A stretch of DNA of 34,061 nucleotides from a virus: positions 1 through 34,061 of IMG/VR virus record IMGVR_UViG_3300048447_000174; one strand, 5' to 3'. Of the stretch, positions 13,515 to 33,320 are shown piece by piece. Within the stretch, counting starts at the first letter, position 1. Every line of letters begins with the position of its first letter. The notes below the pieces were generated by a model that was not told the DNA's origin, ran no database searches, and saw only the letters and a list, made by a program, of their open reading frames with translations. The translations under genes and the position numbers were made by a program.

Positions 13515-13922
13515 ATGTCTAAGGTTAATTTTGAACGTTATCAAGAATTTGTGGCAGAAGTCACTTCAGATTGTTCTACAAACTTTGTTGATTTCGCTGA
13601 CCGTATTGGTGATCTGGATCGACAAGGTGCCAATATTGAGAGACTGCTTACTGCTGGTGTTGGAATTAATGCTGAGGGTGGTGAGTTTCTTGAAATCATT
13701 AAGAAGATGGTGTTCCAAGGAAAACCGTGGAACGAAGATAATCGTGAGCATCTTATCATTGAGTTGGGTGATATTATGTGGTACGTTGCTCAAGCTACAA
13801 TGGCACTTGATATATCCTTCGATGAGTTGATCGGAACTAATGTCAACAAACTCAAGAAGCGTTATCCAGGTGGTGAGTTTGATGTATTTAAATCAGAAAA
13901 TCGCGCAGCAGGCGACAGATAA
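13515..13922 (+). CDS. mazG: MazG-like nucleotide pyrophosphohydrolase
   Basis: 135 residues. The all-alpha NTP-pyrophosphatase motif is present: GGEFLEIIKKMVFQGKPW (E-x-x-E-type pair), then LIIELGDIMWYVAQ (E-x-x-D), then a conserved KLKKRYPGGEFD helix. Members hydrolyse non-canonical or canonical NTPs, and cyanophage MazG has been discussed as acting on (d)GTP/dCTP or ppGpp; the substrate cannot be read from sequence. It starts two bases after gp41 and overlaps the next start (TAATG). Confidence 0.92.
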   Translation: MSKVNFERYQEFVAEVTSDCSTNFVDFADRIGDLDRQGANIERLLTAGVGINAEGGEFLEIIKKMVFQGKPWNEDNREHLIIELGDIMWYVAQATMALDISFDELIGTNVNKLKKRYPGGEFDVFKSENRAAGDR

Positions 13923-14113
13923 TGTTTAGTCTCTGGATCCACCTACGAGCATTCTTTTCTGTTGTAGTGGTGAGTTGTGCTCACCCTGTCAACTGGGAGC
14001 ATTGTGTTCGTGTGGACCAGTGGCTCTTGCCAGAAGTCAAGGAAGGATATAATTTATGGACAGGTAAAACAAAACCTTATCAACGTGAGAAAGATTTTTT
14101 AGATGGCATTTGA
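13922..14113 (+). CDS. small membrane-anchored protein or lipoprotein (63 aa)
   Basis: Starts inside the mazG stop (TAATG). The first 20 residues are hydrophobic (HLRAFFSVVVVSC) and end in VVSC, which fits a lipobox, with Cys about residue 19. The rest is a short polar tail with two Trp. Its end overlaps the next gene by 11 bases. Either a lipoprotein or a single-helix inner-membrane protein; role unknown. Confidence 0.65.
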   Translation: MFSLWIHLRAFFSVVVVSCAHPVNWEHCVRVDQWLLPEVKEGYNLWTGKTKPYQREKDFLDGI

Positions 14114-14753
14114 TTATAACGGATTGATACGTAAACCTGCTCAATATATTGCTGGAGCATTTGAACCTGATCTTGTTAGTATAGAAGACATCGAAAACTA
14201 TCTGAATGAACATAAGTACATCAAGAAAGAATTAGAATTAATTCATCCAGATACTGGACAGAAATTACCTTATGAGACGCACGATGGACCATGGAGAGGA
14301 ACCTATGACGCAGATGTCATAGAGAATCTATGGAACATCGGAGCGTCTTTTATTTTGCAAACACCTTATATCAATTTTAAGGTTAGAGACATGGTGCAGG
14401 CAATCGAAGAAGCAAACCATGTCTCATGTGATGCACACATATATCATGGTAAGAAAAACAGTTCGTCCTTCATGCCACACTGTGACAGTAGTATCAACCT
14501 AGTCGTGCAGTGCAAAGGTCAGTGTGCTTGGAACGTATGGAATCAGATGAACCCTGTGCCATCTACGTTTCCTAACATTGCAGAACGCCCTGCAATATCT
14601 GTTGTCATGAGTCCAGGAGATGCTATGATAGTTCCGAAAGGACAAATTCATCATGCACAACCACTCACAGACAGAATCAGTGTCAGTTTCGCTTTCTTCC
14701 CTGGACCCAAAACAATCCAAAGAGACATTAGTCTCGACTGGAACACTAAATAG
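14103..14753 (+). CDS. JmjC/cupin-like 2-oxoglutarate-Fe(II) oxygenase candidate
   Basis: 216 residues. A metal-binding His-x-Asp is seen at PHCD (His126, Asp128) with a distal His in GQIHH (His183/184), and Arg191 lies where 2-oxoglutarate could bind. Between them are strands INLVVQCKGQCAWNVW and VVMSPGDAMIVP, the Gly-Asp turn being characteristic of JmjC-like cupins. Such enzymes hydroxylate proteins or small molecules; the substrate is unknown. The gene overlaps the previous one by 11 bases and ends the replication operon. Confidence 0.75.
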   Translation: MAFDYNGLIRKPAQYIAGAFEPDLVSIEDIENYLNEHKYIKKELELIHPDTGQKLPYETHDGPWRGTYDADVIENLWNIGASFILQTPYINFKVRDMVQAIEEANHVSCDAHIYHGKKNSSSFMPHCDSSINLVVQCKGQCAWNVWNQMNPVPSTFPNIAERPAISVVMSPGDAMIVPKGQIHHAQPLTDRISVSFAFFPGPKTIQRDISLDWNTK

Positions 14754-14772: not shown

Positions 14773-16272
14773 ATGATAACAATACCATCAGCAGTAAGAG
14801 ACGCATGGGAAGACCTAGTTTATAAGTCTCTTGCCACAGAAGATTATAGTTACTTGGTTTTTGATATCAAGAAAGCAGAAACCGATCCGAAGAAAAAAGT
14901 TCAGGTCTACATGAAAGTGTATGTGCCTGAAGCAAAAAGAAGAACTGCCACTACCAATGTAAAGGCAGCAATGGAGTCCGAAGGACATATCGTAGAGATC
15001 TTAAAGAAGAAAGGTTCTGAGATTCCATCGCTAGACATACAGGTAGGGTCAGAAAATAATAAAGTAAAAGTAATTCGCGTTGAATTCAAACCATCCAAGT
15101 CTGCAGGGTCAGGCGGTGGCGCAGCAAAGACTAAGATACAAGAGAGTGCTGCTTGTCTATACAATGCACTTCGTTTCCATGTCTTCAATACAGATATGGA
15201 ACCTGGTATGATGATTACTGAGGATGATCTTGCTAAAGCATCTCAGTATATTGATACTCCAGATGCTACCATGGAAGAAATGATGGGGTTTGATCCTGAT
15301 TGGCAGCAGGTCTTTATGGATGGTGCCAACAAACTTCATGCGAAAGTAAGTGGAGGTGATTACTTATTTGTTCGTGGTGATAAAGAAATTGATGATGGTG
15401 TAATTAAAAAAGCATTTGCCAAATGTAAAACATCTTTGGAATCAAATCTACAGAACGAAGATAAATGGAATCCATCAGACATATGGATGGTTAAAAGATC
15501 TAGCAAAGCAGCGGTAATTGCTGAACTAACCCCATTCACAAAGAAGGTGTCAGCAACTTCTATTGAAGTATTGAATACCAAACTAGCAGAACTATTTGTA
15601 TCTAAAGATTTGATGGGAGTGTCTTTGAAAAAGACAGGTGCCACTGGCACAGTAAAAGTTATTAATGGTGAGACACCAGCACAACGTAAAGCACAACTTG
15701 AAGTTGCCTTTGATAAAAATAAATCAATAGGTGAGTTGGTTTACGATAGTGGTAGAAACTATACAGGTTCGGAAATAGATAAAAGATATCCCATGGATGT
15801 TTACATCTACTACGGACCTAAACCCCACGACAGAATTCAACTAAGAAACTTTGGTGGTGATACTACTGGCGACTGGAAGTTAGAACTTAAAGGTGAGTAT
15901 GCTGCCATGGGTAAAGTCCAGGGTAGTGTTGCTAGATTTATCTTACAGAAGACTGGATTCTCTCACATCCCACAAGAACCAACGTGGGTAGAGAGTGATC
16001 CAAAGCACACTCAATCAGATAAAATATCAAAAGAAATATATAATTTACTTAAAGAATTCAGCGCAAAAGGATTCGACAAGACAGACAAAGATCAGATGAT
16101 GGGTGAGATTGAGGGTAAGCGTCAATCGTGGAGATACAGTAAACTATCAGGACTTCGCTTCTTAAAATTTTTGAAAGACCTGAATGGTGAAGCAGATAAG
16201 GCAGTGAAAGAATTATATCTTTTTGCTGGATCAGCATCAGATCATTCATCAATTTACTTCAAGTATTCCTAA
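14773..16272 (+). CDS. unknown protein with PD-(D/E)XK-nuclease-like N-terminus (499 aa)
   Basis: A GGCGGAGG ribosome site lies 9 bases before the ATG. In the first 130 residues there is a strand-turn-strand with Asp88 (LDIQV), Glu104 and Lys106 (RVEFKPSK), then a Gly-rich turn and KIQESAACLY with Gln123-Glu124. This spacing (D...ExK...Q) suggests the PD-(D/E)XK nuclease fold, but two other folds could show it by chance. The remaining 370 residues have no recognised domain. It begins the three-gene run with the ligase-like and nucleotidyltransferase genes; start and stop overlap by TAATG with the next gene. Confidence 0.6.
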   Translation: MITIPSAVRDAWEDLVYKSLATEDYSYLVFDIKKAETDPKKKVQVYMKVYVPEAKRRTATTNVKAAMESEGHIVEILKKKGSEIPSLDIQVGSENNKVKVIRVEFKPSKSAGSGGGAAKTKIQESAACLYNALRFHVFNTDMEPGMMITEDDLAKASQYIDTPDATMEEMMGFDPDWQQVFMDGANKLHAKVSGGDYLFVRGDKEIDDGVIKKAFAKCKTSLESNLQNEDKWNPSDIWMVKRSSKAAVIAELTPFTKKVSATSIEVLNTKLAELFVSKDLMGVSLKKTGATGTVKVINGETPAQRKAQLEVAFDKNKSIGELVYDSGRNYTGSEIDKRYPMDVYIYYGPKPHDRIQLRNFGGDTTGDWKLELKGEYAAMGKVQGSVARFILQKTGFSHIPQEPTWVESDPKHTQSDKISKEIYNLLKEFSAKGFDKTDKDQMMGEIEGKRQSWRYSKLSGLRFLKFLKDLNGEADKAVKELYLFAGSASDHSSIYFKYS

Positions 16273-17468
16273 TGTCAAACGTAAAACAACTAAAGCATTT
16301 GGAGCATTTAGAGGATGAGATGCTGAACTATGGCATCGAAGGATGCAAGGCAGCAGTATCATTCCTCAAAGAACTTCGTAACATGTTGGGGCACCAAGAA
16401 AGTAGTGGTTTCATGCAGACTAAGTGGGATGGTGCTCCTTCTGTTATCTGTGGCGAACATCCTGCATCTGGTAGGTTCTTTGTCGGCACAAAGTCTGTCT
16501 TCAATAAGGTAGAACCTAAGATATGCTATAGTGAAAAAGCAATTGATAAATTATATGATGGAGATCTAGCAGAGAAACTTAAGTTTGCTCTACGATACTT
16601 CAGTGAACTGGGTATCAAGGGAGTCATCCAGGGTGACCTCATGTTTACTGACAGTACATTAAAAGCAGAGACTGTTAACGGTGAGAGACTGTATACATTC
16701 AGACCTAACACTATTACCTATGCTATCCCAGTAGATCATCCTATTGGTAAGGCAGCAGGTACTGCAAAAATTGGTGTAGTATTTCATACTCACTATACTG
16801 GAGATGATCTACCTACCATGCAAGCAAGAGCTGGTGCTGATATAACAGGATCTAGAAATGCATTGGTGATTAAAAATGATACCCCAATGCATAGAGTTGG
16901 ATTTTCTAAAGCAGAGATGCAGAAGTTTGACAATCACGTCACCAAGATCGAACGTATGTGTCAGGTATGTGGACCATTCTTAGATGACCTTGTAGAAAAC
17001 TTTGGCAACACAGGGGATAAAAAGTTTCACATTTCATCATATATTAAACAGTTTTTTAATGCTGAGATTAGAGAACGTCGGAACGTTGGAAACATTGATG
17101 AGACTATCCATGCTCTGGTAAACTTCTATGATGCTAAGATGCAGAAAGAGTTGGAAAAAATAAAGACACCTGCCAACAGAGTGAAGAAAGCAAACTTAGT
17201 ATATCAAAGTGAGAACTATTTGATTGATAATGTGTATAAGTTTAAGGCAATGCTTGCCTTATATAAAGAGATACAAACTGTCAAGCAAATGGTTATAGAT
17301 AAGTTAGATCACCTTGAAACATTCAGAACTTTTGTGGAGACTGACAAAGGATATAAGGTCACAACTCCCGAAGGTTATGTTCTACATAAAGATGGTAGTA
17401 TGATCAAATTTGTTAATCGTCTTGAGTTTGCTTACAACAACTTCACCCTCCAGAAAAAATGGCGTTAA
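16272..17468 (+). CDS. protein with nucleotidyltransferase/ligase-type KxDG motif (398 aa; DUF6267-like)
   Basis: Residues 51-54 read KWDG followed by APSVICG, the pattern of motif I (lysine that receives AMP) in ATP-dependent DNA/RNA ligases and capping enzymes. Further ligase-like motifs in order are FFVGTKSVFNK (69-79), GVIQGDLMF (117-125, like motif III), VVFHTHYTG (169-177) and ALVIKND (197-203, like motif V). The C-terminal half is helical and unrecognised. No ligase activity is claimed: the assignment rests on motif order. Related cyanophage proteins are usually called hypothetical. It overlaps the next gene by 10 bases. Confidence 0.65.
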   Translation: MSNVKQLKHLEHLEDEMLNYGIEGCKAAVSFLKELRNMLGHQESSGFMQTKWDGAPSVICGEHPASGRFFVGTKSVFNKVEPKICYSEKAIDKLYDGDLAEKLKFALRYFSELGIKGVIQGDLMFTDSTLKAETVNGERLYTFRPNTITYAIPVDHPIGKAAGTAKIGVVFHTHYTGDDLPTMQARAGADITGSRNALVIKNDTPMHRVGFSKAEMQKFDNHVTKIERMCQVCGPFLDDLVENFGNTGDKKFHISSYIKQFFNAEIRERRNVGNIDETIHALVNFYDAKMQKELEKIKTPANRVKKANLVYQSENYLIDNVYKFKAMLALYKEIQTVKQMVIDKLDHLETFRTFVETDKGYKVTTPEGYVLHKDGSMIKFVNRLEFAYNNFTLQKKWR

Positions 17469-18022
17469 ATTGCATCAAATGCTACTTTACTTTTGGTAGG
17501 TTTCAACCACCTACTACAGGTCATAAAGAAAATTTCGATGGGGTGAAACGCATCGCAGGTGGTCATGACTATAGGATCTATATCTCACAGACATTTGACA
17601 CTAAAGGAAAGAACCCACTACCACCTGATCGTAAACTACATTACATGAATAAGATGTTTCCAGAACATCGTGGTAAAATAATGTCAGGACCAAAAGATCC
17701 TGTTGCTATCATGCAAGACTTGATGATGGCAGGATATAATGAGGTTATATTTCTAGTGGGATCTGATAGGGTAAGCGCCATGCAGTTCCTCCATAAATAT
17801 AATGGCAAAGATTTTTCGTTTAGAAAAATTGAGATACAATCTTCAGGTAGTAGAGATGCTGATGGAGATACCTTTGCTATTTCTGGAACTAAAATGAGAC
17901 GTGCAGCACATGCTAACGACTTTAAAACATTTCGTTCTGGTATTCCTAAAGCATTAAATGATAAAGACTGTGAGACTATGATGAATGAGATTAGATCAAA
18001 TCTACCCGCAAACTTTAAATGA
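17459..18022 (+). CDS. nucleotidylyltransferase of the TxGH/HxGH superfamily (187 aa)
   Basis: FGRFQPPTTGHKENF (residues 12-26) contains the T-x-G-H nucleotide-binding motif and DTFAISGTKMR (about 138-148) matches the ISxTxxR signature of adenylyl/cytidylyl-transferases such as NadM. VIFLVGSDR is the expected middle strand. These enzymes join a nucleotide to a phosphorylated substrate; NMN adenylylation or cytidylyl transfer is possible. It overlaps the ligase-like gene, so the two are coexpressed. Confidence 0.82.
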   Translation: MALNCIKCYFTFGRFQPPTTGHKENFDGVKRIAGGHDYRIYISQTFDTKGKNPLPPDRKLHYMNKMFPEHRGKIMSGPKDPVAIMQDLMMAGYNEVIFLVGSDRVSAMQFLHKYNGKDFSFRKIEIQSSGSRDADGDTFAISGTKMRRAAHANDFKTFRSGIPKALNDKDCETMMNEIRSNLPANFK

Positions 18023-18309
18023 AAAATTTTAAAGATCTGAAGAAGAGAGCAACGCAAGAAAGTTTTCGTCAGAAAAAATCACTTAGGGAAGGTGATGTTG
18101 TAATGTCAGCAGTGACAGGTGATAAAGGCAAAATATACAGAGCAGGTGTTAACTATGCTATCTGTGTAACTGAGTCTGGAGAAATGTTTCGTGCGTGGGT
18201 AAAAGACCTGAGAGAAGTTGCGGCAATTGATTCCATAAATAAAGAAAGGAAAAGTAGTATCTTTACAAATAATGGAAAGACAAAAACCAACGACAAGCGT
18301 TCAACATGA
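18019..18309 (+). CDS. small basic protein, unknown (96 aa)
   Basis: ATGA overlap with the nucleotidyltransferase. The basic N-terminus (MKNFKDLKKRATQESFRQKK) is followed by strand-like segments (GDVVMSAVTGDKGKIYRAG, YAICVTESGEMFRAWVKDL) of KOW or SH3-like pattern. The last 13 codons overlap the next gene in another frame. Function unknown. Confidence 0.75.
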   Translation: MKNFKDLKKRATQESFRQKKSLREGDVVMSAVTGDKGKIYRAGVNYAICVTESGEMFRAWVKDLREVAAIDSINKERKSSIFTNNGKTKTNDKRST

Positions 18310-33089: not shown

Positions 33090-33092
33090 TAC

Positions 33093-33165
33093 GACTCAGT
33101 AGCTCAGTGGACAGAGCAACTGCCTTCTAAGCAGTCGGTCGTTGGTTCGACCCCAACCTGAGTCG
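33093..33165 (+). tRNA. tRNA-Arg(UCU)
   Basis: 73 bases. Acceptor arm GACTCAG with CTGAGTC, D-arm AGCTCAGTGGACAGAGC, anticodon loop CTTCTAA in an ACTGC/GCAGT stem (anticodon TCT), T-arm GTTGG-TTCGACC-CCAAC. No encoded CCA. Confidence 0.93.
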
Positions 33166-33170
33166 TTCAA

Positions 33171-33247
33171 TCCCCTGTAGCTCAATCAGGCAGAGCGCCA
33201 AACTGTTAATTTGGATGTTACTGGTTCGATTCCAGTCGGGGGAGCCA
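33171..33247 (+). tRNA. tRNA-Asn(GUU), with encoded CCA
   Basis: Acceptor TCCCCTG with CGGGGGA, anticodon loop CTGTTAA in a CCAAA/TTTGG stem (anticodon GTT), T-loop TTCGATT. CCA is encoded at 33245-33247 after discriminator G. The Asn(GUU) identity is clear from the loop. Confidence 0.92.
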
Positions 33248-33248
33248 C

Positions 33249-33320
33249 GCTCGAATAGTTCAGCGGTAGAACACTTGATTTACATTCAAGTTGTCGGGGG
33301 TTCAAATCCCTCTTCGAGCA
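33249..33320 (+). tRNA. tRNA-Val(UAC)
   Basis: 72 bases. Acceptor GCTCGAA with TTCGAGC, anticodon loop TTTACAT in a CTTGA/TCAAG stem (anticodon TAC), T-arm GGGGG-TTCAAAT-CCCTC with one mismatch. It begins one base after the CCA of tRNA-Asn. Confidence 0.93.

Follow-up and report, generated by a model that had tools for sequence, protein, structure and literature searches.

A T4-like cyanophage cassette of predicted cutting, joining and NAD enzymes with an exchangeable first gene

Rnl2 ligases fused to HNH nucleases have been described for jumbo phages (PMC7824862), and in phage T4 residues 4 and 7 of an N-terminal capsid-targeting peptide are reported to direct targeting and residues 8 and 10 processing (PMC9026906). 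The gene set considered here corresponds to the cyanophage T4 gene clusters T4-GC533, T4-GC71 and T4-GC190, the last of which has been listed since 2010 among the core genes of cyanophages and as an unexplained protein of the virion (PMC3037559). We analysed these genes in a window of 34,061 nucleotides (positions 1 to 34,061 of IMG/VR virus record IMGVR_UViG_3300048447_000174), a fragment of a T4-like cyanomyovirus, where they encode proteins of 499, 398 (DUF6267) and 187 residues, the last resembling nicotinamide mononucleotide (NMN) adenylyltransferases (NMNAT). A sequence-only reading had seen in them nuclease, ligase and nucleotidyltransferase signatures and had suggested an undescribed module for end processing, repair or NAD metabolism; its observations were partly confirmed and its interpretation partly supported. 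The set itself was already known as gene clusters and its parts are of known kinds, whereas their combination with whole-gene exchange and head-targeting starts seems new, as no account of it was found in the accessible parts of the open-access literature searched. Our best explanation, held with moderate confidence, is a cassette of T4-like phages that would provide exchangeable cutting enzymes together with joining and NAD enzymes, partly delivered in the phage head, all of these activities being predicted.

The three open reading frames (ORFs) matched phrog_1462, PF19782/phrog_455 and phrog_3041 with E-values of 1e-152 to 1e-72, and are therefore conserved families and not chance ORFs. Their previously proposed coordinates were exact, with overlaps of 1 base (499/398 residues) and 10 bases (398/187 residues), and the 187-residue ORF overlaps a further 96-residue ORF by 4 bases. 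The view that the three genes are expressed together was supported by a conserved operon across loci. By tblastn, 468 phage records contained DUF6267 and 527 the 187-residue family, most of them cyanophages. At the DNA level the locus shares 89% identity with Prochlorococcus phage Syn1 and cyanophage S-RIM44.

The gene directly upstream of DUF6267, whose position we call the slot, varies between phages. Comparison of 75 loci with a DUF6267 at least 76% identical to that of the window revealed five slot families (the window's type in 24 loci, U0 in 30, U2 in 12, U3 in 8 and U10 in 1) with no BLAST similarity to each other (best E 0.48), and DUF6267 identity reached 92.7% between loci with different slot families. 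In the cleanest swap pair (L027 and L014), DNA identity was 88% up to the slot start codon and resumed 4 bases ahead of the start of DUF6267, and outside the swap it was 84-88%; in other locus pairs identity broke at or near the slot, and a few loci held other genes there. The slot gene is swapped whole, nearly codon to codon, between near-identical phages, a property of the first gene that had been overlooked in the sequence-only reading.

Many slot families contain a D-x(n)-SxK motif, for example PKTDILFVKGGKKYKCSMK in S-SM1 and NPTDVLVKF...LGLSAK in U2. A stricter form of the motif was present in 10 of 27 slot families and 15 of 118 other families from held-out loci (p about 0.008, a Fisher value that overstates significance because homologues are not independent). 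The invariant residues of U3 are E110, K167-x-D169, S184-H-K186 and Q196, and two of its members matched the PADLOC type II restriction enzyme profile PDLC03459 (E 3e-11 and 5e-9) over a span including invariant D169 and S184-H-K186. For most slot families Pfam, NCBIfam and PADLOC yielded nothing convincing, profile-to-profile comparison of the slot families showed no significant kinship, and profiles of families A9 and A10 gave no convincing match to solved chains. Because the D...SxK motif recurs and U3 matches a restriction enzyme profile, the slot is predicted most likely to hold exchangeable restriction-type nucleases. The slot gene at L253:82-1944 weakly matched an HNH endonuclease (E 0.08), and unrelated nuclease folds may occupy the slot.

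PD-(D/E)xK nucleases present, in order, a helix Glu, an Asp and an xxK motif. In the 499-residue slot protein of the window, conservation was assessed in 70 homologues, where W232, P234, D236, S284, L285, K286 and N298 were invariant and E124 was kept in 69; the wider set of invariant or nearly invariant positions comprises E124, W177, K231-W-N-P-A-D236-I, G282-x-S284-L-K286, N298, D342, E371 and G380. E124...D236...S284-x-K286 follows the PD-(D/E)xK order with Ser at the usual acidic position. The D...ExK...Q site proposed earlier was only partly right, as the strongly conserved residues lie elsewhere: Asp88 is Asp in 48 of 70 homologues and Lys106 is Lys in 58, and Glu104, whose conservation had been set beforehand as a test, is Glu in only 22 (Asp in 12), and we rejected the Glu104/Lys106 site. 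The suggestion of a nuclease survives through the other conserved residues and the company of the slot, from which, and not from a fold match, we predict that the 499-residue protein is probably a nuclease. A Foldseek search of its model against the PDB returned nothing with E below 0.001, its strong matches among viral models were unnamed or uncharacterised phage proteins, and the family profile had no convincing match among solved chains. The fold of residues 3-116 is similar to those of RsfS and terminal nucleotidyltransferases (Z up to 9.7); a conserved pair of catalytic acids was not seen there, and we do not propose a polymerase activity for this region.

DUF6267 contains the covalent nucleotidyltransferase motifs I (KxDG), III, IV (EGxV) and V in the correct order. 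Among 91 diverse homologues K51, W52, D53, G54, Q120, D122, E367, G368 and K379 were invariant, with V370 kept in 90 and R383 in 88, so that both the KWDG-led motif series and the candidate adenylylation site Lys51 noted earlier stood up to comparison. The AlphaFold model (predicted local distance difference test, pLDDT, 89.5) also has a ligase-type nucleotidyltransferase fold. Its best structural match was Naegleria RNA ligase (VIA-align Z 8.1), followed by T4 Rnl1 (7.1), T4 Rnl2 (6.8) and archaeal RNA ligases; the top ten were all RNA ligases (Z 8.1-6.3 over 162-182 residues) and many DNA ligases ranked lower. Because Foldseek alone found nothing in the PDB with E below 0.001, we regard fold support for a nucleotidyltransferase domain as moderate; a Z near 8 would be weak by itself and is strengthened by the uniform top ten and the expected conserved residues. 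Both the motif order and the domain fold thus place DUF6267 in the covalent nucleotidyltransferase superfamily. Its sole Pfam match was PF19782, with none to a ligase model (including PF09414), and its profile matched no solved chain convincingly. Neither the family match and post-motif V OB-fold domain of DNA ligases nor the RNA_ligase family match and C-terminal Rnl domain of Rnl1/Rnl2 was found, and the protein carries a long helical insert. From these model-based comparisons DUF6267 is probably a new Rnl-like ligase family, with activity predicted; no mention of it was found in the open-access text available to the search.

Two other roles for DUF6267 were weighed. It could be the replication and repair DNA ligase otherwise missing in Kyanoviridae, sealing Okazaki fragments beside gp43/uvsX/gp41/gp61 while its neighbours are unrelated passengers. 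The cassette does lie in the replication cluster, and 13 Kyanoviridae genomes without a match to PF01068, PF09414 or PF01653 all carry DUF6267. However, DUF6267 is not simply a replicative ligase, because Stenotrophomonas phage DLP6 and Vibrio phage 2.275 encode both it and a DNA ligase; the lack of an OB-fold domain, the T4-type capsid-targeting starts of many DUF6267 proteins and the distance from replication genes in S-SCSM1 and S-CREM2 also speak against this role, which we consider unlikely. In the latter two phages DUF6267 is short (about 295 residues; L442:3986-4873 in S-CREM2 and L441:3907-4791 in S-SCSM1) and is found outside the cassette, with neither a slot gene nor an NMNAT as partner. 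A second possibility is an RNA-repair kit in which DUF6267 and end-healing partners would reseal tRNAs or other RNAs that antiviral nucleases of the host have cut, as T4 Rnl1/PnkP do. Such a kit agrees with the RNA-ligase structural matches, with the recorded linkage of phage RNA ligases to nucleases (PMC7824862) and with the presence, close to DUF6267 in some phages, of HAD proteins that weakly match polynucleotide kinases. It nevertheless appears quite unlikely to us, as the slot genes mostly resemble nucleases of D...SxK or restriction type and not end-healing enzymes, the HAD partner is rare, and neither a kinase nor a phosphatase is adjacent in the cyanophages shown. The HAD-like proteins in question (L257:3384-4001, L263:5525-6241 and L220:5785-6534) have capsid-targeting-like starts and match phrog_415 with E-values of 4e-5 to 6e-4.

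The 187-residue protein bears GRFQPPTTGH and ISGTKMR, signatures of the HIGH nucleotidyltransferase superfamily, whose (H/T)xGH and ISxTxxR elements are both present. As the sequence-only reading had noticed these elements, we checked their conservation, and T19, G21, H22, S142, K145 and R147 were kept in all 11 homologues. Its best NCBIfam matches, although weak, were NMNAT models, and an NMNAT-family profile found no convincing match among solved chains. The suggested role in NAD synthesis is in this way partly upheld: the protein is a TxGH nucleotidyltransferase whose closest models are NMNAT, yet no cut-off was reached, and we predict from sequence a probable NMNAT-like protein with NMN adenylyltransferase activity. 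DUF6267-NMNAT fusions occur in S-PM2 and L172, and at L249:1425-2702 an NMNAT-type domain is fused to a P-loop kinase (AAA_33/Zeta_toxin profiles) in the NadR arrangement. This NadR-like protein also has a capsid-targeting-like start and may be head-delivered. In other relatives the 187-residue protein is fused to a C-terminal region that in the window is the separate 96-residue gene (phrog_395, E 6e-11). Public annotations of the 96-residue family include 'ribonucleotide reductase alpha subunit', 'NrdB' and 'possible cytitidyltransferase', which look like annotation errors because the family matches the C-terminal region of NMNAT-type proteins. A purely metabolic set, in which NAD levels of infected cells are raised, or an NAD-depleting defence is countered, by the NMNAT-like protein and gene order is incidental, fits the NMNAT-like matches, the NadR-like fusion and earlier proposals (PMC9602691). 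The tight adjacency and fusion of NMNAT with DUF6267, the scores below cut-off and the unexplained slot make it, in our judgement, improbable.

Many cassette relatives start with a peptide like MKKFSAFLTEA, and T4 ipII and ipIII, which start MKTYQEFIAEA, match the same targeting pattern. We built this pattern on T4 positions 4, 7, 8 and 10 after viewing a few examples and then applied it to held-out loci. In the first set it matched 28 of 132 DUF6267 and 26 of 111 NMNAT N-termini compared to 6 of 937 other ORFs. The held-out loci gave 21/121 for DUF6267, 20/104 for NMNAT and 10/94 for the slot against 22/614 for others (p = 3e-7, 1e-7 and 0.006, respectively, values inflated by relatedness). 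When syn9 and 140 kb of Melnitz-1 were scanned, a single matching ORF was found in each, both in the cassette. Mass spectrometry by others has placed NMNAT-like proteins in the virions of S-SM1, S-SCSM1, S-SZBM1 and S-CREM2 (PMC3037559, PMC9602691, PMC9146016, PMC10665884), and virion presence of a slot homologue has been reported in one phage; all four NMNAT-like proteins checked match the pattern. Packaging of the NMNAT-like protein is supported in several relatives, and that of tagged DUF6267 ligases is predicted from their N-termini. In S-SCSM1 both the slot homologue and the NMNAT-type protein are annotated as virion proteins, which would also fit structural or carried-over components with no enzymatic role in infection, and carry-over after CsCl purification is possible according to the authors (PMC10665884). 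Such inert proteins would hardly be expected to keep strongly conserved active-site residues in all three families or, as a structural part, to be swapped whole for unrelated ones, and we hold this explanation to be very improbable.

In the enzyme cassette that we favour, the slot nuclease, restriction-enzyme-like, would cut nucleic acid, presumably host or rival DNA, DUF6267 would adenylate its own Lys51 and seal or modify nucleic-acid ends, and the NMNAT-like enzyme would make NAD or recycle NMN. The tagged NMNAT-like protein (in relatives), with the ligase or slot protein in many phages, would be packed in the head, and this part of the kit would enter the cell alongside the DNA and be active before new protein synthesis. 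In the window's own phage, packaging is no more than a possibility, and the catalytic activities and targets are all inferred. Several observations weigh against this reading. Slot families are only modestly enriched in the motif, the 499-residue protein has Ser at the motif position that Asp or Glu takes in classical nucleases, and its model showed no restriction-enzyme fold, the listed fold rows covering mainly residues 3-116 and barely the core. The modelled DUF6267 chain ends about 15 residues past motif V and lacks the domain that known ligases have at the C-terminus, and NMNAT models scored far below cut-off (TIGR01526, 17.2 bits versus 341). An N-terminal scan found no capsid-targeting peptide of the T4 type, with its final Glu followed by a small residue, on the window's own three proteins, and the virion protein lists of S-SZBM1 and S-CREM2 do not include DUF6267, which is also unflagged in S-SCSM1.

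A bolder extension, tentative and with a minority share of our belief, is a weapon-and-repair cassette. Here each phage would inject, together with its DNA, one nuclease from a large interchangeable set of restriction type to destroy host or rival genomes, while the new ligase and NAD-making enzyme mend or protect the phage's own nucleic acid. Recombination within its conserved flanks would exchange the slot, which would resemble a restriction locus that has no methylase. DUF6267 is present in hundreds of sequenced cyanomyoviruses without an assigned function, and its role as a new ligase family is now testable. The same holds for the head-targeted, NMNAT-like role of GC190 and for a locus at which near-identical phages exchange entire restriction-type nucleases. 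Should these roles prove true, marine phages of the T4 type would possess a general means of bringing enzymes into the cell at the very start of infection, and new nucleases and ligases could be drawn from the locus.

Upstream of the three genes the window encodes DNA polymerase, uvsX, gp41 and mazG. A JmjC_2-type oxygenase gene (14103-14753, E 2e-12) lies between mazG and the slot gene, and 2-oxoglutarate (2OG) oxygenases recur near the same place in other cyanophages. Three clustered tRNA genes (Arg-TCT, Asn-GTT and Val-TAC) are found at 33092-33320. Promoter-like sites in the region were not above the level of shuffled sequences.

Table 1 Features of the cassette and its upstream flank in the window.
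Feature	Position	Strand	Assignment and residues
mazG	13515..13922	+	conserved upstream flank of slot; outside the cassette itself
Slot gene, 499 aa	14773..16272	+	phrog_1462 / T4-GC533; probable PD-(D/E)xK-like nuclease; E124, D236, S284-L-K286
Slot gene N-terminal region, residues 3-116			RsfS/nucleotidyltransferase-like domain
DUF6267, 398 aa	16272..17468	+	PF19782/phrog_455, T4-GC71; probable Rnl-like ligase
DUF6267 motifs			I K51-W-D-G; III QGD122; IV E367-G-x-V370; V K379-x-V-x-R383
NMNAT-like HIGH-superfamily nucleotidyltransferase, 187 aa	17459..18022	+	phrog_3041, T4-GC190; TTGH, ISGTKMR
96-aa gene	18019..18309	+	matches the C-terminal part of longer proteins of NMNAT type; probably the cassette's fourth member

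Compared with known systems, the slot resembles type II restriction endonucleases and PD-(D/E)xK enzymes in the U3 profile matches and in the E...D...xxK order of several slot families, but its third motif has Ser in place of Asp/Glu, no methylase gene adjoins it in the loci viewed, and the window's slot protein and most others match no profile. DUF6267 shares with T4 Rnl1/Rnl2 and Naegleria RNA ligase the motif order I/III/IV/V, the catalytic lysine and the nucleotidyltransferase-domain fold; it differs in its motif III Asp, its own helical insert, the absence of a C-terminal domain after motif V and in that neither ligase Pfam families nor solved chains match it in sequence. The 187-residue family is like the NMN adenylyltransferases NadM, NadR and NadD in its TxGH and ISxTxxR motifs and best, weak NCBIfam matches, whereas its scores are far under the curated cut-offs and its relatives have extra N- and C-terminal regions. 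Like T4 IPII and IPIII, cassette relatives have an N-terminal peptide with hydrophobic residues at positions 4, 7 and 8 and Glu at 10, although the cargo here looks enzymatic and the tag is absent in many lineages including that of the window. Finally, the present cassette and the NAD-salvage and RNA-repair sets of jumbo phages have in common HIGH nucleotidyltransferases fused to kinases (PMC7824862), whereas the accessible part of that account makes no mention of DUF6267, of an exchange slot or of head targeting.

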